From: Paraburkholderia edwinii
GTDB taxonomy: Bacteria; Pseudomonadota; Gammaproteobacteria; Burkholderiales; Burkholderiaceae
Assembly (NCBI RefSeq): GCF_019428685.1
Contig: NZ_CP080095.1
Span: 3,968,001 to 4,032,000 of the forward strand
Length of the DNA stretch: 64,000 bases
Reading direction: 5' to 3'
The position numbers and the translations under genes are program-made. The notes below the pieces were generated by a model. It was not told the DNA's origin. It did not search any database and saw only the letters and a program-made list of their open reading frames with translations. Positions 26,828-32,368 of this stretch are shown piece after piece. Within the stretch, counting starts at the first letter, position 1. Each line of letters opens with the position of its first letter.

Positions 26828-27415
26828 ATGTTCATCATGCAATATTCGATCGCGCTGCCCGCCGAGTACGACATGCAGGCGATCCGCGCGCGCGTCGCGA
26901 GCAAGGGTCCGGCATTTGATACGTTAGACGGGCTCGGCCTCAAATGCTTTCTGATTCGCGAACGCGGCCGGTTCGGCGCGCAAAGCAATGAGTACGCGCC
27001 GGCGTATCTGTGGCCGCATATCGACTCGATGTGGGGCTTCCTGGCCGGCGCCGGATTCGCCGGCATCAAGGAATCTTTCGGCACGCCGCCGGTTGAGACA
27101 TGGCCAGCCCTCGCCTATGCGCGCTCGGCGCGGCTGACCAACCCGCGCGCCATCGTTGCGCTCACACGCGAAGACGAGACGCTGGGTACCGACGCGAATC
27201 TGGTCGAACGGCGCGAGCGGGAAACCGATGCCGCGCTCGATGCCGTCGAGCGCACGCCGGGTCTGCTTGCCCGTGCGGTGGGGCTCGACCCGTCGAACTG
27301 GCGGCTTGTCCGCTTCGACTACTGGGTGCTGCCGCAACAAGAACTACCCACGCAATCGCGCAGCTATGAGGTGCTGCACGTTTCAGCTCCGGCGTTCGCC
27401 GAACTGCACGCATAA
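26828..27415 (+). CDS. DUF4865 family protein
   Basis: 195 residues from ATG 26828 with an excellent AAGGAGG. MQYSIALPAEYDMQAIRARVASKGPAFDTLDGLGLKCFLIRE and WPHIDSMWGFLAGAGFAGIKESFG are the family blocks. It resembles small dimeric alpha/beta-barrel or monooxygenase-like proteins. It forms an operon with the tautomerase. Its last 52 bp overlap the 3' end of the AraC gene on the other strand. Confidence 0.85.
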   Translation: MFIMQYSIALPAEYDMQAIRARVASKGPAFDTLDGLGLKCFLIRERGRFGAQSNEYAPAYLWPHIDSMWGFLAGAGFAGIKESFGTPPVETWPALAYARSARLTNPRAIVALTREDETLGTDANLVERRERETDAALDAVERTPGLLARAVGLDPSNWRLVRFDYWVLPQQELPTQSRSYEVLHVSAPAFAELHA

Positions 27416-28311
27416 GCGTTCGCATATTCGCGCGGCGTCACGCCGTACTTCTGCCTGAAAAGACGGCTGAAGTGCGCGGCACTCGCGAACCCGCATCGGT
27501 TTGCAACGTCCTTGATCGCGAGATCCGGCGTTTCGGCAAGCAGCCGGCCCGCGTGTTCGAGCCGCAGCGAGTACGCGTAGCGCATCGGCGACAAGCCACG
27601 CTGCCGGAACGCGCGCGTGAGCGAACTGATCGACAGATTGAGCTGGCCTGCAAGGCTCGCGATGCTCAAGTCCGGATCGGCCAGACGTCGGGTGATCAGC
27701 TGCGCGGCGCGCGCGACGACCCATTTCGCGCCGCGGCCTGTTTGCGTCGCGCCGCTGTGTTCGAGCAACACGTCCATCAAGTCGAGAAACTGATGACCGA
27801 CCCGCTCGATCAATGCGTCGCTGGCGTTGTCGACATGGGCCGTGAACGCCAGCAACAGCGCACGCACGGCGGTGACGTCGCCGTTTTCGTGAACCGGCTG
27901 GCAGGCGCTTGCAAATTGCCACGACAATCCGCGCTCCCTTAGCGCCCGCTTCGGGATATGCACGACTGAAACCTGCGTGGGCTCGCGGAACGAACGGCTG
28001 AATGCATGCGACGGCTCGACGAGCAACATGTCGCCCGGATCGAAGATCCGCGTTTCTCCGTTCTGTTCGATTGTCATCCGGCCGCGGCGGACGATCTCGA
28101 GCCTTAGATGGCGCCCATCGTCGCGCCATCCGTGGCGCTTGCCTGCGAGCGCTTCAAGCGGTGATTCCGGTGAAGACTCAAGTTCACCCATCGGGCCTTC
28201 GCCACCAAGTTCGACATGGGTGATAAAGATTTTCCCTGAGCGCCCGCATGAAGCAGCGCCCGTGCCGGAACAAAGGATGCCTGAACGGCGCGACTTGCCT
28301 GACTCTCGCAT
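27364..28311 (-). CDS. AraC-family transcriptional regulator
   Basis: 315 residues. The C-terminal 100 residues hold two helix-turn-helix units (LSIASLAGQLNLSISSLTRAFRQ and LAIKDVANRCGFASAAHFSRLFRQKYG). The N-terminal part (GRMTIEQNGETRIFDPGDMLLVEPS) is the cupin-like AraC-binding domain of the AraC_binding_2 type. The start at 28311 has a weak site; an inner ATG at 28191 would cut into the ligand domain. The stop region overlaps DUF4865 by 52 bp. Confidence 0.88.
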   Translation of the reverse strand: MRESGKSRRSGILCSGTGAASCGRSGKIFITHVELGGEGPMGELESSPESPLEALAGKRHGWRDDGRHLRLEIVRRGRMTIEQNGETRIFDPGDMLLVEPSHAFSRSFREPTQVSVVHIPKRALRERGLSWQFASACQPVHENGDVTAVRALLLAFTAHVDNASDALIERVGHQFLDLMDVLLEHSGATQTGRGAKWVVARAAQLITRRLADPDLSIASLAGQLNLSISSLTRAFRQRGLSPMRYAYSLRLEHAGRLLAETPDLAIKDVANRCGFASAAHFSRLFRQKYGVTPREYANAYACSSANAGAETCSTS

Positions 28312-28613
28312 TTTTCGATCCGTGTCTGCCGATCGAAAAATCTGCGCCGCCGCGAGCCTGTTGAGCTGGGTGAAACACGTGCATCATTTCGACGAATTCC
28401 CAAGACGTTTTGAATTCATCGCCGCCCCTCGAGTGTTGACGGAGTTTCGCTGCTCTAATGAATTCGGGTTACCCAATCGTTAGCGTGGTAACTCACGTTA
28501 GTATCTTCCTGAGAAGATATTTCGTCAAGAAAACACACTGATCTGGCAAGCGGGACAATACCGATGCCGACGCACGAATCCGCGGCAGGGGCGCCGGCTA
28601 TCGATCAAACCGG
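28312..28613. promoter_or_regulatory. AraC upstream region with AT-rich dyad and repeat copy
   Basis: 302 bp without a gene. It contains a perfect dyad TATCTTC-N4-GAAGATA (28502-28519), of the TATCT-N8-AGATA shape known for MarR-type operators such as that of MhqR. GTTACC (28468-28473) and GGTAAC (28487-28492) form a second dyad, and TTACCCAA (28469-28476) is shared with the region upstream of the MarR fusion gene. These may be sites for the adjacent MarR-like protein. Confidence 0.4.
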
Positions 28614-29489
28614 TCAGAACGCCACCGACAGAATGCGCCTGAGGTAGGAGTCCGCCTCGCTATACTCGTCGTCGCTCATGCCGATCCCCTCGCGCAATAC
28701 GCCGAGCCCTTGCGCAATATGGTCCATCCCCGCATCGGCCGCTTTAACGCCTGCCTGGGTGAGCATGATCCTCGACGAACGGAGATCCTCATCGTCGGGC
28801 ATGCGCGCGACGAGCTTCGCGCGCTCGAGCCGGTCGATACGCTTCGTCATGGCACCCGAAGTGACGAGCAGCGCCCGGAACAGATCGGTCGGACGCATTG
28901 CATACGGCGCACCGACGCGGCGCAACGCAAGCAGTACATGCAATTCGCCGACATCGACGCCCACCGATTGCGAAATCATCGTGAGGCGACGCTCGTGCAT
29001 GTAATGCGCCTGTTTGATTCGCATGAACAGGCCCATGAGGCTCAGATCGAGGTCCGGACGTTCGCGCGCCCATGCGAGCGCGACCTCATCGAGCTTGTCG
29101 GTCTGCACGCGTTTTTTCGGACGGCTTCGTTTGATGCGCTGGCTCAGTTCGTCCGCCGCCGTGCCGTAGCCCTTACCCAACCACCAGTCGTGCGAACGTT
29201 CGATCGCCTGCCGGTAATCGAGTACCGCGAGACCATCGGCGCGCGCGTGATCGTCGGCCTTGCCGAGCAGGATTTCCTCATACCTGCCTGATCCGACGAA
29301 TACGCGCGCGTGCCATGTGCCCGAACGCGCGCCCTTGTAGTAGCCGAGATGGCGGCCCGTATCGACCGCGTGCCAATACGGCTTGCGCCGCGGCGCAAGC
29401 GCCGCGCGCGCTTCGCGCGTCGCGAGCCATGCATCGCTTGCGGGTTCGGCGCCCGCCAGATCCGGCGCCACCTGCTCGTTGCTGTCCAT
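28614..29489 (-). CDS. integrase arm-type DNA-binding domain fused to a MarR-family regulator
   Basis: 291 residues from ATG 29489 (GAGG 9 bp upstream). Residues about 22-103 (LATREARAALAPRRKPYW, LGYYKGARSGTWHAR, LGKADDHARADGLAVLDYRQA) match the N-terminal arm-binding region of tyrosine site-specific integrases. After a basic linker (118-128, RIKRSRPKKR) comes a MarR domain (about 133-288): WARERPDLDLS, TDLFRALLVTSGAMTKRIDRLERAKLV and the wing DDEDLRSSRIMLT. No catalytic Arg/His/Tyr integrase core is present. It probably acts as a two-headed DNA-binding regulator of the divergent oxalate decarboxylase-mntH operon; no recombination is expected. Confidence 0.85.
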   Translation of the reverse strand: MDSNEQVAPDLAGAEPASDAWLATREARAALAPRRKPYWHAVDTGRHLGYYKGARSGTWHARVFVGSGRYEEILLGKADDHARADGLAVLDYRQAIERSHDWWLGKGYGTAADELSQRIKRSRPKKRVQTDKLDEVALAWARERPDLDLSLMGLFMRIKQAHYMHERRLTMISQSVGVDVGELHVLLALRRVGAPYAMRPTDLFRALLVTSGAMTKRIDRLERAKLVARMPDDEDLRSSRIMLTQAGVKAADAGMDHIAQGLGVLREGIGMSDDEYSEADSYLRRILSVAF

Positions 29490-29529
29490 GCTGTTTTGCC
29501 TCAAATCGACCTATCGCTGGCTTCCCATA

Positions 29530-29546
29530 TTACCCAACTTACCCAA
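29530..29546. promoter_or_regulatory. direct repeat TTACCCAA x2 at 9-bp pitch
   Basis: TTACCCAA at 29530-29537 and 29539-29546, between the fusion regulator and the decarboxylase gene. A third copy lies at 28469-28476 behind the regulator gene. Short direct repeats are the form of integrase arm-type sites, so these are candidates for the N-terminal domain of the fusion protein. Confidence 0.4.
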
Positions 29547-29774
29547 TTTCTTCAAATTCGCCGTCCGTCTCGCGCGAGTTCATGGCGGTTTCGATGCGTG
29601 CGTATCGCACTGCTTAACCGATCGTATAAACGGTAGATATGATGATGTCCCCGCATCTTCCGATCGTCCGATAGCCGAGTTGCCTCTACGTTTTTAACAT
29701 CCACCTCAATGCGCATGACGGCCGAGCGCCTCGTGCAATCGCGCAGCATTCCGAACCACGTATTGAGGTTGAAC

Positions 29775-31031
29775 ATGACAAATATGTCGAGACGCAGGGC
29801 AATGATCGGCGCGGCCACGGCCGCAATCGCTGCAGGCGTCGCTGTTACTGCAAAGGCTGCATCGTTTGGCAATCCCGATGGTCCAGGCGAAGGCGCGATC
29901 AACGCGCGCAATCCACAGGATCTGACGGACCCGGGTCCGCAAAACCCGGCACTGGCAAACCAGTTCCCATCGATCCAGAATCCGCCCGCCACCGACGTCA
30001 ACGGTATGCCGCTGTACTGGTCGTCGTTTAACACCGCACACAAGCGCATCCAGAACGGTGGCTGGGCTCGCGAAGTGACGCAATCAGACTTCGCAATTTC
30101 GACGGAAATCTCCGGCGTCAACATGCGCCTTTCCGCAGGCGGCATTCGCGAGATGCATTGGCATCAACAAGCCGAATGGGCCATCATGCTCGACGGCAAT
30201 TGCCGCATCACGACGCTCGACGAGCAGGGCCGGCCCTCCGTACAGGACGTAAAAGCGGGCGACCTCTGGTATTTCCCGGCGGGCCTGCCGCATTCGCTGC
30301 AAGGCATCGGCAGCACGGGCGCCGAATTTCTGATCGCATTCGATAACGGCACGGCGTCGGAATTCAACACGCTGCTTCTCACCGACTGGATCGCGCATAC
30401 GCCGCTCGACGTGCTCGCCGCAAATTTCGGCGTGCCGGTTGAAGCGTTCAGGAACATCCCGCTGCACAACCTGTGGATTTTCCAGGGCAAGGAGCCGGGC
30501 GCGCTGGCCGCCGACCAGCGCGCAGCCGCATCGAAGAAAGGGCCACCCGCCATGCCCGTGATCTTCTCATTGGCCGGTTCAAAGTACGTGCGCCAGACGC
30601 GCGGCGGCCACGTGCAGATCGCGGACAGCACGAACTTCCCCATTTCGAAGACGATCGCAGCGGCGCTCGTCACCGTGCACCCGGGCGGCATCCGCGAAAT
30701 GCACTGGCATCCGAATGCCGATGAATGGCAGTACTACATCAAGGGCAAAGGCCGCGTGACCGTATTCGACACGGGCCCGAAGGCGCTCACGGCCGACTTC
30801 GGCTCAGGCGATATCGGTTACGTGCGTAAAGGTCTTGGCCACTATGTGCAGAACATGGGCGACACGGACCTGATCTTCCTCGAGGTGTTCAGGAGCGACC
30901 ATTTCGCCGAGGTCTCGTTGTCCGACTGGCTCACGCATACGCCGCCCGAGATGGTCATGCAGACGCTGAACATCAGTGCGGAAACGCTCGCGCAATTTCC
31001 GCGCGACCGGCCCGATGTGATGCCCGAGTAA
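29775..31031 (+). CDS. oxdC: Tat-exported oxalate decarboxylase (bicupin)
   Basis: 418 residues. SRRRAMIGAATAAIAAGVAVTAKA at the N-terminus is a twin-arginine signal. Cupin one has His128, His130, Glu134 (MHWHQQAEW) and His173; cupin two has His310, His312, Glu317 (MHWHPNADEW) and His356, both complete Mn(II) sites. The lid loop reads SEFNT against SENST in the Bacillus enzyme, keeping Glu196, the residue needed for decarboxylation of oxalate to formate and CO2. GAGG precedes ATG 29775. The Nramp gene follows after 29 bp. Confidence 0.9.
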   Translation: MTNMSRRRAMIGAATAAIAAGVAVTAKAASFGNPDGPGEGAINARNPQDLTDPGPQNPALANQFPSIQNPPATDVNGMPLYWSSFNTAHKRIQNGGWAREVTQSDFAISTEISGVNMRLSAGGIREMHWHQQAEWAIMLDGNCRITTLDEQGRPSVQDVKAGDLWYFPAGLPHSLQGIGSTGAEFLIAFDNGTASEFNTLLLTDWIAHTPLDVLAANFGVPVEAFRNIPLHNLWIFQGKEPGALAADQRAAASKKGPPAMPVIFSLAGSKYVRQTRGGHVQIADSTNFPISKTIAAALVTVHPGGIREMHWHPNADEWQYYIKGKGRVTVFDTGPKALTADFGSGDIGYVRKGLGHYVQNMGDTDLIFLEVFRSDHFAEVSLSDWLTHTPPEMVMQTLNISAETLAQFPRDRPDVMPE

Positions 31032-31060
31032 CCCGGCAACGGCAAGCGGAGCACCCCCCC

Positions 31061-32368
31061 ATGCAGACCCTCTCCACCACGCGCGACGGCGTAGCGGCCG
31101 TTGCCGTCAATCTCACGCAGCGCACCGAATACTCGGTCCGCGCCGCACTCGAAGGGCGCAGCACAGGCCTCGGCGCATTCCTGCCGTTCGTCGGACCTGC
31201 GCTGATCGCGTCGGTCGGCTATATGGACCCGGGCAACTTCGCCACCAATATCGAAGCCGGCTCGCGATACGGATATGGTCTGCTGTGGGTCGTTTTGATT
31301 TCCAGCGCCGTAGCTATGCTGTTTCAGGCGTTATCCGCGCGGCTCGGCATCGTGACGGGGCTCAATCTCGCGGAGTTATGCCGCGAGCACTTTCCGCGTC
31401 CCGTCACGCTGGCGATGTGGGTCGCATCCGAAATCGCCGCTATCGCAACGGACTTAGCCGAGTTTCTCGGCGGCGCACTCGCGCTCGCGCTGCTGTTTCA
31501 CCTGCCGATGCTCGTCGCGATGGGCGTCATCGCCATTGCGACCTGGGCGATCCTGTCGTTGGAAAAACACGGCTTCCGGCCGCTCGAAATCGCGATCGCC
31601 GCGCTCGTTACGGTCATCGGCGCCACCTATCTTTGCGAGCTTTTTATCGCCCCGCCCGACTGGCCCGCGGTGATCGCGCATACGTTCGTTCCGCATCTGC
31701 AGGACAGCGGCGCGCTGACGCTCGCGGTCGGCATCGTCGGCGCGACGATCATGCCGCATACGCTTTATCTGCATTCGGGGCTCACGCAAAAGCGCGTGGT
31801 CGCGCGGAGTACGGACGAACGCCGCAAGCTGATCCGCTTTTCGAATCGTGAAGTGATGATCGCGCTCGGCGCGGCTGCGTTCGTCAATCTCGCCATGGTC
31901 GTGATGGCGGCAACCGTGTTTCATCACACGGCGCCGGACACGAGCGATATCGGCGCGGCCTACCGTACGCTCGTTCCGTTGCTGGGCACCGGTGCGGCCG
32001 GCCTCTTCCTTGTCGCGCTACTGGCAAGCGGCGTATCGAGTTCGGTGGTCGGCACGATGGCCGGGCAAGTGATCATGCAGGGATTCGTGCGCTTCCGCAT
32101 TCCGGTGACAGTGCGGCGGCTCGTGACTGTTGTGCCTTCGTTCGCGGTGGTCGCGCTCGGTTGCAACGTCACGCACGCGATGGTCATCAGTCAGGTCGTG
32201 CTGAGTATGGCGTTGCCGTTGCCGATGGTTGCGCTGCTGATCTTATCGGGCAAGCAGTCTGTTATGGGCGCGTTTGCAATCCGTAAAGGGACGATTGCAA
32301 TTGCCGGCGCGGCGGCGCTGTTGATCGTCGCGTTGAATGTCGTGCTGGTTTATCAGGCGATCGTGTGA
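31061..32368 (+). CDS. mntH: Nramp-family divalent metal (Mn) transporter
   Basis: 435 residues, eleven or so membrane helices. Metal-site motifs are DPGN (56-59) and MPH (231-233), both intact, which with the length identify a bacterial Nramp proton/Mn(II) symporter. GGAG precedes ATG 31061, 29 bp after the oxalate decarboxylase stop, so both are on one transcript. Because oxalate decarboxylase is Mn-dependent, the importer probably secures its cofactor; a general MntR-type site was not seen. Confidence 0.9.
   Translation: MQTLSTTRDGVAAVAVNLTQRTEYSVRAALEGRSTGLGAFLPFVGPALIASVGYMDPGNFATNIEAGSRYGYGLLWVVLISSAVAMLFQALSARLGIVTGLNLAELCREHFPRPVTLAMWVASEIAAIATDLAEFLGGALALALLFHLPMLVAMGVIAIATWAILSLEKHGFRPLEIAIAALVTVIGATYLCELFIAPPDWPAVIAHTFVPHLQDSGALTLAVGIVGATIMPHTLYLHSGLTQKRVVARSTDERRKLIRFSNREVMIALGAAAFVNLAMVVMAATVFHHTAPDTSDIGAAYRTLVPLLGTGAAGLFLVALLASGVSSSVVGTMAGQVIMQGFVRFRIPVTVRRLVTVVPSFAVVALGCNVTHAMVISQVVLSMALPLPMVALLILSGKQSVMGAFAIRKGTIAIAGAAALLIVALNVVLVYQAIV

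Follow-up and report, generated by a model that had tools for sequence, protein, structure and literature searches.

How does a transcriptional regulator acquire a second DNA specificity, and how do its operators grow to match? This general, testable question is raised by a MarR-type regulator encoded in a 64,000-nucleotide stretch of the Paraburkholderia edwinii genome (contig NZ_CP080095.1, positions 3,968,001 to 4,032,000; below, the window). A first-pass annotation, made from the sequence alone, had seen the N-terminal pattern of tyrosine integrases in front of a complete MarR domain, with the integrase core missing, and both Pfam and an alignment of 26 such fusions confirm what it saw. 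In our judgement the protein is probably a MarR repressor that responds to a ligand and reads DNA with two different heads, one for a palindrome and the other for a set of direct repeats. A two-headed regulator thus appears to have been made from part of a mobile element. The features of the window are collected in Table 1, and loci are cited by our own numbers (prefix L). An alternative TTG start would lengthen the regulator frame to 296 residues.

The C-terminal half is a winged-helix MarR domain. Residues 177-238 match two Pfam models above their curated cut-offs, MarR_2 (4.5e-8; 33.6 bits, cut-off 27) and MarR (6.8e-8; 32.7 bits, cut-off 24.6). No match to the Phage_integrase catalytic domain occurs anywhere in the 291 residues, so the protein is not a whole tyrosine recombinase, and the replacement of the core by a MarR domain stands as first described. 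Among solved structures this half is nearest, by sequence and by predicted fold, to PecS and MftR (urate-responsive MarR regulators; 8ylh/8yli and 8ylf/8ylg), which align at residues 130-258 (E = 7.8e-23) and 134-259 (E = 8.8e-22), take in the W..ERPDLD segment and fill places 1 to 6 of the fold matches. Unlike the fusion, their chains of 169-170 residues have no second N-terminal DNA-binding domain. The alignment shows one tryptophan common to the MarR half and PecS/MftR, in which we take it to be a ligand residue.

What, then, is the N-terminal domain? Its integrase-like pattern is conserved across the 26 fusions, 25 of which are 40-88% identical to the window protein: L22, R28, L31, K36, P37, Y38, W39, G45, G49, Y51, G53, R55, W59, R62, F64, G66, Y70, L75, G76, L90, A95 and W102 are invariant. 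The ADD..ADG..VL piece, which had been counted as part of the pattern, occurs in the window protein, its near relatives and some integrases, and is not conserved in the other fusion genera. When the two halves are searched separately, the MarR half is found by Pfam, while the N-terminal piece has no significant match in Pfam (0 of 11 fusion domains), NCBIfam or PHROGs, and its sequence profile has none in the PDB; single-sequence region searches of the protein collection returned fusions only (18 and 11 proteins) and no integrases. Integrase N-termini are reached by profile only, with a profile that we built from 11 fusions, and to these the fusion domain is homologous in sequence. One of the 16 profile matches (L021), likely a chance match in the wrong frame, was dropped before the integrases were counted, and two weak matches in the regulator's own genome (L006, L007) were left out. 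The homologous domain is found in tyrosine integrases of Paraburkholderia and other Burkholderiales with a PYW..GYR..GTW.AR N-terminus (43% identity over 58 residues with the L090 frame); these differ from the fusion, which lacks a catalytic domain match.

Structure prediction points the same way. An AlphaFold2 model of the whole chain, made from the 26 sequences (mean predicted local distance difference test score, pLDDT, 81), has two confident parts and a weak stretch at 109-126 between them; the basic stretch noted earlier at 118-128 is not conserved outside Paraburkholderia. The MarR half is predicted to be PecS/MftR-like, and the N-terminal part to have the fold of solved arm-type domains, with a Foldseek E-value of only 7.4e-3. 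The arm-type domains of the HPI, HAI7 and P4-like integrases (3jtz, 3ju0, 3rmp) share 12-15% identity with the fusion domain, and there the domain sits in a recombinase, whereas in the fusion a MarR domain comes next. Our profile and the predicted fold together support the suggestion of the first-pass annotation that an integrase arm domain was recruited as a second DNA-binding head.

Among 5.8 billion proteins a family search found 510 matches; we examined the 120 that were listed, and 3 more from a later search. By profile, 48 of these 123 proteins have the N-terminal domain, and the other 75, of 175-234 residues, are without it. With 390 matches outside the list, the family has at least 48 fusions. 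Among the matches listed, the organisms with fusions are all Burkholderiales (Paraburkholderia, Cupriavidus, Variovorax, Hydrogenophaga, Xenophilus, Pigmentiphaga, Pusillimonas and one Burkholderiales metagenome-assembled genome). The fusion is rare, being found in 4 of 144 genomes of the window's genus and in 1 of 399 genomes of an order sample (at a threshold of E 1e-14), where both surveys scored only the best candidates of a loose first pass. In a midpoint-rooted tree of the MarR half, comprising 11 fusions and 43 of 54 MarR-only loci (L040, L042, L043, L045, L063, L072, L074, L075, L078, L080 and L082 were left out), the fusions form one clade (97/92) beside a MarR-only sister group, mainly Bradyrhizobium (93/93), with a joint branch at 90/65. 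Long branches were flagged by the tree program (L081, L084 and others), no fusion among them. The simplest reading of this tree is a single fusion event.

We now consider the sites that the two heads could read. In each of 10 fusion loci the palindrome ATCTTCCnnGGAAGAT follows 36-94 base pairs (bp) after the regulator match ends (nine with at most 2 mismatches, L027 with 3); it is also present in the window and in L102, a locus obtained later, and in the scanned flanks of 30 of 54 MarR-only relatives. It mostly sits between a -35-like and a -10-like element, as judged from the best fit near each site (the -35 of L026 is poor, and the L102 palindrome side falls outside these fits). Which genes does it accompany? 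At six of the seven non-Paraburkholderia fusion loci and at L102 we find a divergent Rieske oxygenase gene (identified by a LigXa_C match in L027), the regulator, a substrate-binding protein, two ATPases and two permeases of branched-chain type, although the L029 record stops inside the substrate-binding gene. The seventh locus, L026 of Cupriavidus, has the transporter and lacks the Rieske gene of the others. Twelve MarR-only loci of the sister clade have the same Rieske (65-68% identity) and substrate-binding (58-63%) genes, with the palindrome beside both, and because these genes are shared the regulon probably predates the fusion. The neighbours are different in Paraburkholderia, where the palindrome stands before an AraC-family gene at three of four loci. 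At the locus of Paraburkholderia solisilvae (L024:8951-9099) a perfect palindrome lies downstream of the regulator gene, without an AraC match there.

The second kind of site is found almost exclusively where the N-terminal domain is. Upstream of the regulator gene in the window stands the tandem direct repeat TTGGGTAA-G-TTGGGTAA, the sole perfect match to its pattern in the 8.3-megabase genome. We derived the repeat consensus solely from the window and searched the 400 bp upstream at the other loci, allowing a pair up to 3 mismatches: 8 of 10 fusion loci have one there (all but L026 and L030), compared with 0 of 54 MarR-only loci. For the latter the gene start was the start of the tblastn match, and some of the 400 bp is therefore coding sequence; scanning the whole fetched loci settled this doubt: the fusion loci have 20 pairs in 175 kilobases (kb), spread over 10 of the 11, and the MarR-only loci a single pair in 820 kb, at 1 of 54. 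Single units with at most 1 mismatch behave alike: the flanks of the 11 fusion loci contain 32, where shuffles average 2.2 (40 shuffles, largest 6), and those of the 54 MarR-only loci contain 4, where shuffles average 10.1. A looser pattern has 15 matches in the 10 other genomes, and 12 of them, spread over 8 of these genomes, belong to the fusion loci; a backwards control pattern gave 4 matches. The aligned arrays of 10 loci carry 1.35 bits per column, compared with 0.31 and 0.29 in their flanks, a descriptive count since, once the scan was done, we selected the arrays manually and L026 and L030 were not among them.

The sister clade allows the domain and the target genes to be told apart. 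Only 1 of its 12 Rieske-side palindromes has even a single repeat unit within 130 bp, compared with 7 of 7 in fusion loci; the sister clade thus keeps the Rieske genes and palindromes nearly without repeats, and so, as far as comparison of loci can tell, the repeats track the added domain and not the target genes. The tandem repeats co-occur with the N-terminal domain, and that the domain binds them is our prediction.

Quantitative inspection of the loci that have a Rieske gene (L027-L031, L046 and L102) reveals a composite arrangement. All seven have a Rieske-side palindrome with repeat units starting 66-77 bp from its start (L027 68, L028 77, L029 70, L030 77, L031 66, L046 67, L102 67), and four of them (L027, L028, L030 and L046) have a unit at exactly 77 bp. 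The Rieske-side pairs are often imperfect (1-3 mismatches), and information content drops from an average of 1.26 bits in the columns of the palindrome to 0.38 in those between it and the repeats. Where a further gene separates the Rieske gene from the regulator, as in L027 and L030, the composite site is still on the Rieske side. L102 was obtained after the rule on repeats and palindrome had been set and obeyed it; as the third Variovorax locus it was held out but is not distant. Its exact repeat pair starts 44 bp ahead of the start codon; on the Rieske side a weaker pair with 3 mismatches lies 67 bp from a palindrome, and there is also a downstream palindrome. In Paraburkholderia (four loci), the repeats take up the 17 bp that separate a -35-like from a -10-like element.

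How might these parts work together? A MarR dimer would sit on ATCTTCCnnGGAAGAT, between the -35-like and -10-like elements, and repress the target promoters until a small molecule released it. This ligand is probably an aromatic acid, because the Rieske oxygenase and the transporter adjoin the regulator; urate is a rival candidate because the MarR half resembles PecS/MftR. The N-terminal domain of tyrosine-integrase origin would read the 9-bp direct repeats TTGGGTAAn, which are laid out like integrase arm sites, and a dimer would offer two arm-type domains for two repeat units, the arrays having two to three. Repeats at the regulator's own promoter would make for autoregulation. At the Rieske promoter, where they stand 66-77 bp away from the palindrome, the second head probably holds the protein in place and puts a bend or loop into the DNA, much as integrases contact arm and core sites simultaneously. 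More tentatively, and as a proposal on which we would not yet rely, the fusion protein may act as a small integrase-like complex that does not cut: having arisen when a MarR regulator once captured an arm domain, it would bridge the arm-type direct repeats and the core palindrome, set at a fixed distance, and form a DNA loop or bend that the ligand can open.

Several observations weigh against the two-headed repressor. The second repeat unit overlaps a -10-like element, and conservation of the repeats may partly be conservation of a promoter. Because the 11 fusions in the tree are one clade, repeats and domain may have been gained together just once, and the repeats could belong to a different regulator of the fusion lineage. 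In the window's genome, matches to the repeat with 3 mismatches are no commoner than those of a backwards control, and therefore only near-perfect sites carry weight; the L030 genome has no match to the stricter pattern, the L026 locus has no repeat pair at all, and L030 has none near its regulator gene. At the four Paraburkholderia loci no palindrome lies beside the repeats, and any loop there would therefore span the regulator gene; L029, with repeats starting at 70 bp, departs from the 66-68/77 pattern; and tblastn finds no AraC gene after the palindrome of L024. Beside 26 related integrase frames we found two weak TTGGGTAA pairs of other spacing and no good one, within the roughly 1.5 kb at most that these loci reach on each side of the match, beyond which more distant arm sites would escape.

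Could the N-terminal domain have kept the arm fold without specific DNA reading, and serve dimer contacts, stability or signal transfer, while the repeats belong to another regulator or to the promoter? In lambda integrase the arm-type domains are engaged in protein contacts as well, the repeats overlap a -10-like element, and within a single clade the correlation of repeats and domain is weak proof of cause. We nevertheless think this unlikely: W59, R62 and Y70, which lie in predicted strands, are invariant over the 26 fusions; the repeats accompany the regulator's own gene as well as the Rieske side, where L027 and L030 keep them despite the intervening gene; and pairs number 20 in 11 fusion loci against 1 in 54 MarR-only loci. 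It would be more surprising still if the MarR head alone bound palindrome and repeats, with the extra domain adding only affinity without sequence preference. MarR proteins can bind degenerate sites, but TTGGGTAA, the repeat unit, does not resemble the half-site ATCTTCC, and in the MarR-only sister clade the palindromes persist without the repeats. That the integrase match is due to chance or composition, and the domain a new and unrelated fold, would accord with the silence of Pfam, NCBIfam and PDB sequence searches and with single-sequence searches that recover only fusions; we find it scarcely credible in view of the predicted arm fold and the profile comparison with integrases.

The AP2-integrase domains of plant and apicomplexan transcription factors and the ALOG domains are among the closest known systems, and Balaji and others reportedly described recombinase DNA-binding domains as eukaryotic transcription factors in 2005. 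A literature search, with subscription papers mostly outside it, found no description of a MarR protein with an integrase arm domain. For eukaryotes, the turning of recombinase DNA-binding domains into transcription factors is already published (PMC3537659). If our reading is true, the fusion is a bacterial counterpart of that recruitment, and one that can still be compared with sister regulators lacking the added domain, across the target genes they share and the two kinds of DNA site. Binding to separable sites by one small protein with two heads could also serve as a ligand-controlled DNA looping part.

Table 1. Features of the regulator and its surroundings in the window.
Feature	Position	Strand	Basis or remark
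Two-headed MarR-type regulator (probable)	28614..29489	-	291 residues, ATG at 29489
Integrase arm-type N-terminal domain, residues 22-105	29175..29426	-	Profile and fold matches
Linker, residues 106-129	29103..29174	-	AlphaFold2 prediction; low confidence at 109-126
MarR domain of PecS/MftR type, residues 130-291	28617..29102	-	Pfam, fold and sequence matches
Tandem direct repeat TTGGGTAA-G-TTGGGTAA, proposed arm-type domain site	29530..29546	-	Upstream of regulator gene
-35-like TTGAAG of regulator's own promoter	29550..29555	-	Consensus match only; 17 bp from -10
-10-like TAATAT of the same promoter	29527..29532	-	Consensus match only; overlaps second repeat unit
Palindrome TATCTTCCTGAGAAGATA, proposed MarR operator	28502..28519	.	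Next genome matches have 3 mismatches (scan pattern written knowing this site)
-35-like TTGACG towards AraC gene	28523..28528	-	Consensus match only; palindrome between -35 and -10
-10-like GATACT towards AraC gene	28500..28505	-	Consensus match only
Single TTGGGTAA unit adjoining palindrome	28469..28476	-	Pattern scan
AraC-family regulator, proposed direct target	27364..28311	-	Pfam; in 2 of 3 other Paraburkholderia loci

On the other side of the regulator, and divergent from it, the window has an oxalate-decarboxylase-type bicupin gene followed by an Nramp transporter gene (29709-32368). The first-pass annotation had placed the fusion beside oxalate decarboxylase; we dropped this tie, as such a neighbour is present at just 2 of 12 fusion loci, the window and L025 (tblastn for 11 loci, annotation for L102).

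The integrase relatives merit a remark of their own. In the integrase frames L008-L020, L022 and L090-L101 the N-terminal part is a conserved domain hardly covered by Pfam: among the 26 related frames Pfam gave one AP2 and one Arm-DNA-bind_3 match somewhere along the frame. As judged from these sequences, this part is a candidate for a new domain model, and the N-terminal domain of the fusions could likewise become a new family model. A shared arm sequence in the integrase relatives is not supported, as no arm site of theirs shows the repeat sequence.

Further units and gene copies surround some fusions. Downstream of the regulator in L028, L030, L031, L046 and L102, TTGGGnAR-like units lie about 21 and 34-36 bp from the start of the palindrome (L031 has only the second); they precede the ABC transporter genes, and their spacing is unlike that of the 9-bp arrays. 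The protein clusters P0015 and P0018 are different fusions that both bear the name Paraburkholderia jirisanensis, and because they differ under the same species name this species may carry two paralogues. In Variovorax paradoxus ISL-79 (L028:628-1441) a second, frame-broken copy of the fusion gene lies about 7 kb upstream of the intact one, flanked by its own direct-repeat pair (547) and palindrome (1481), one on each side.
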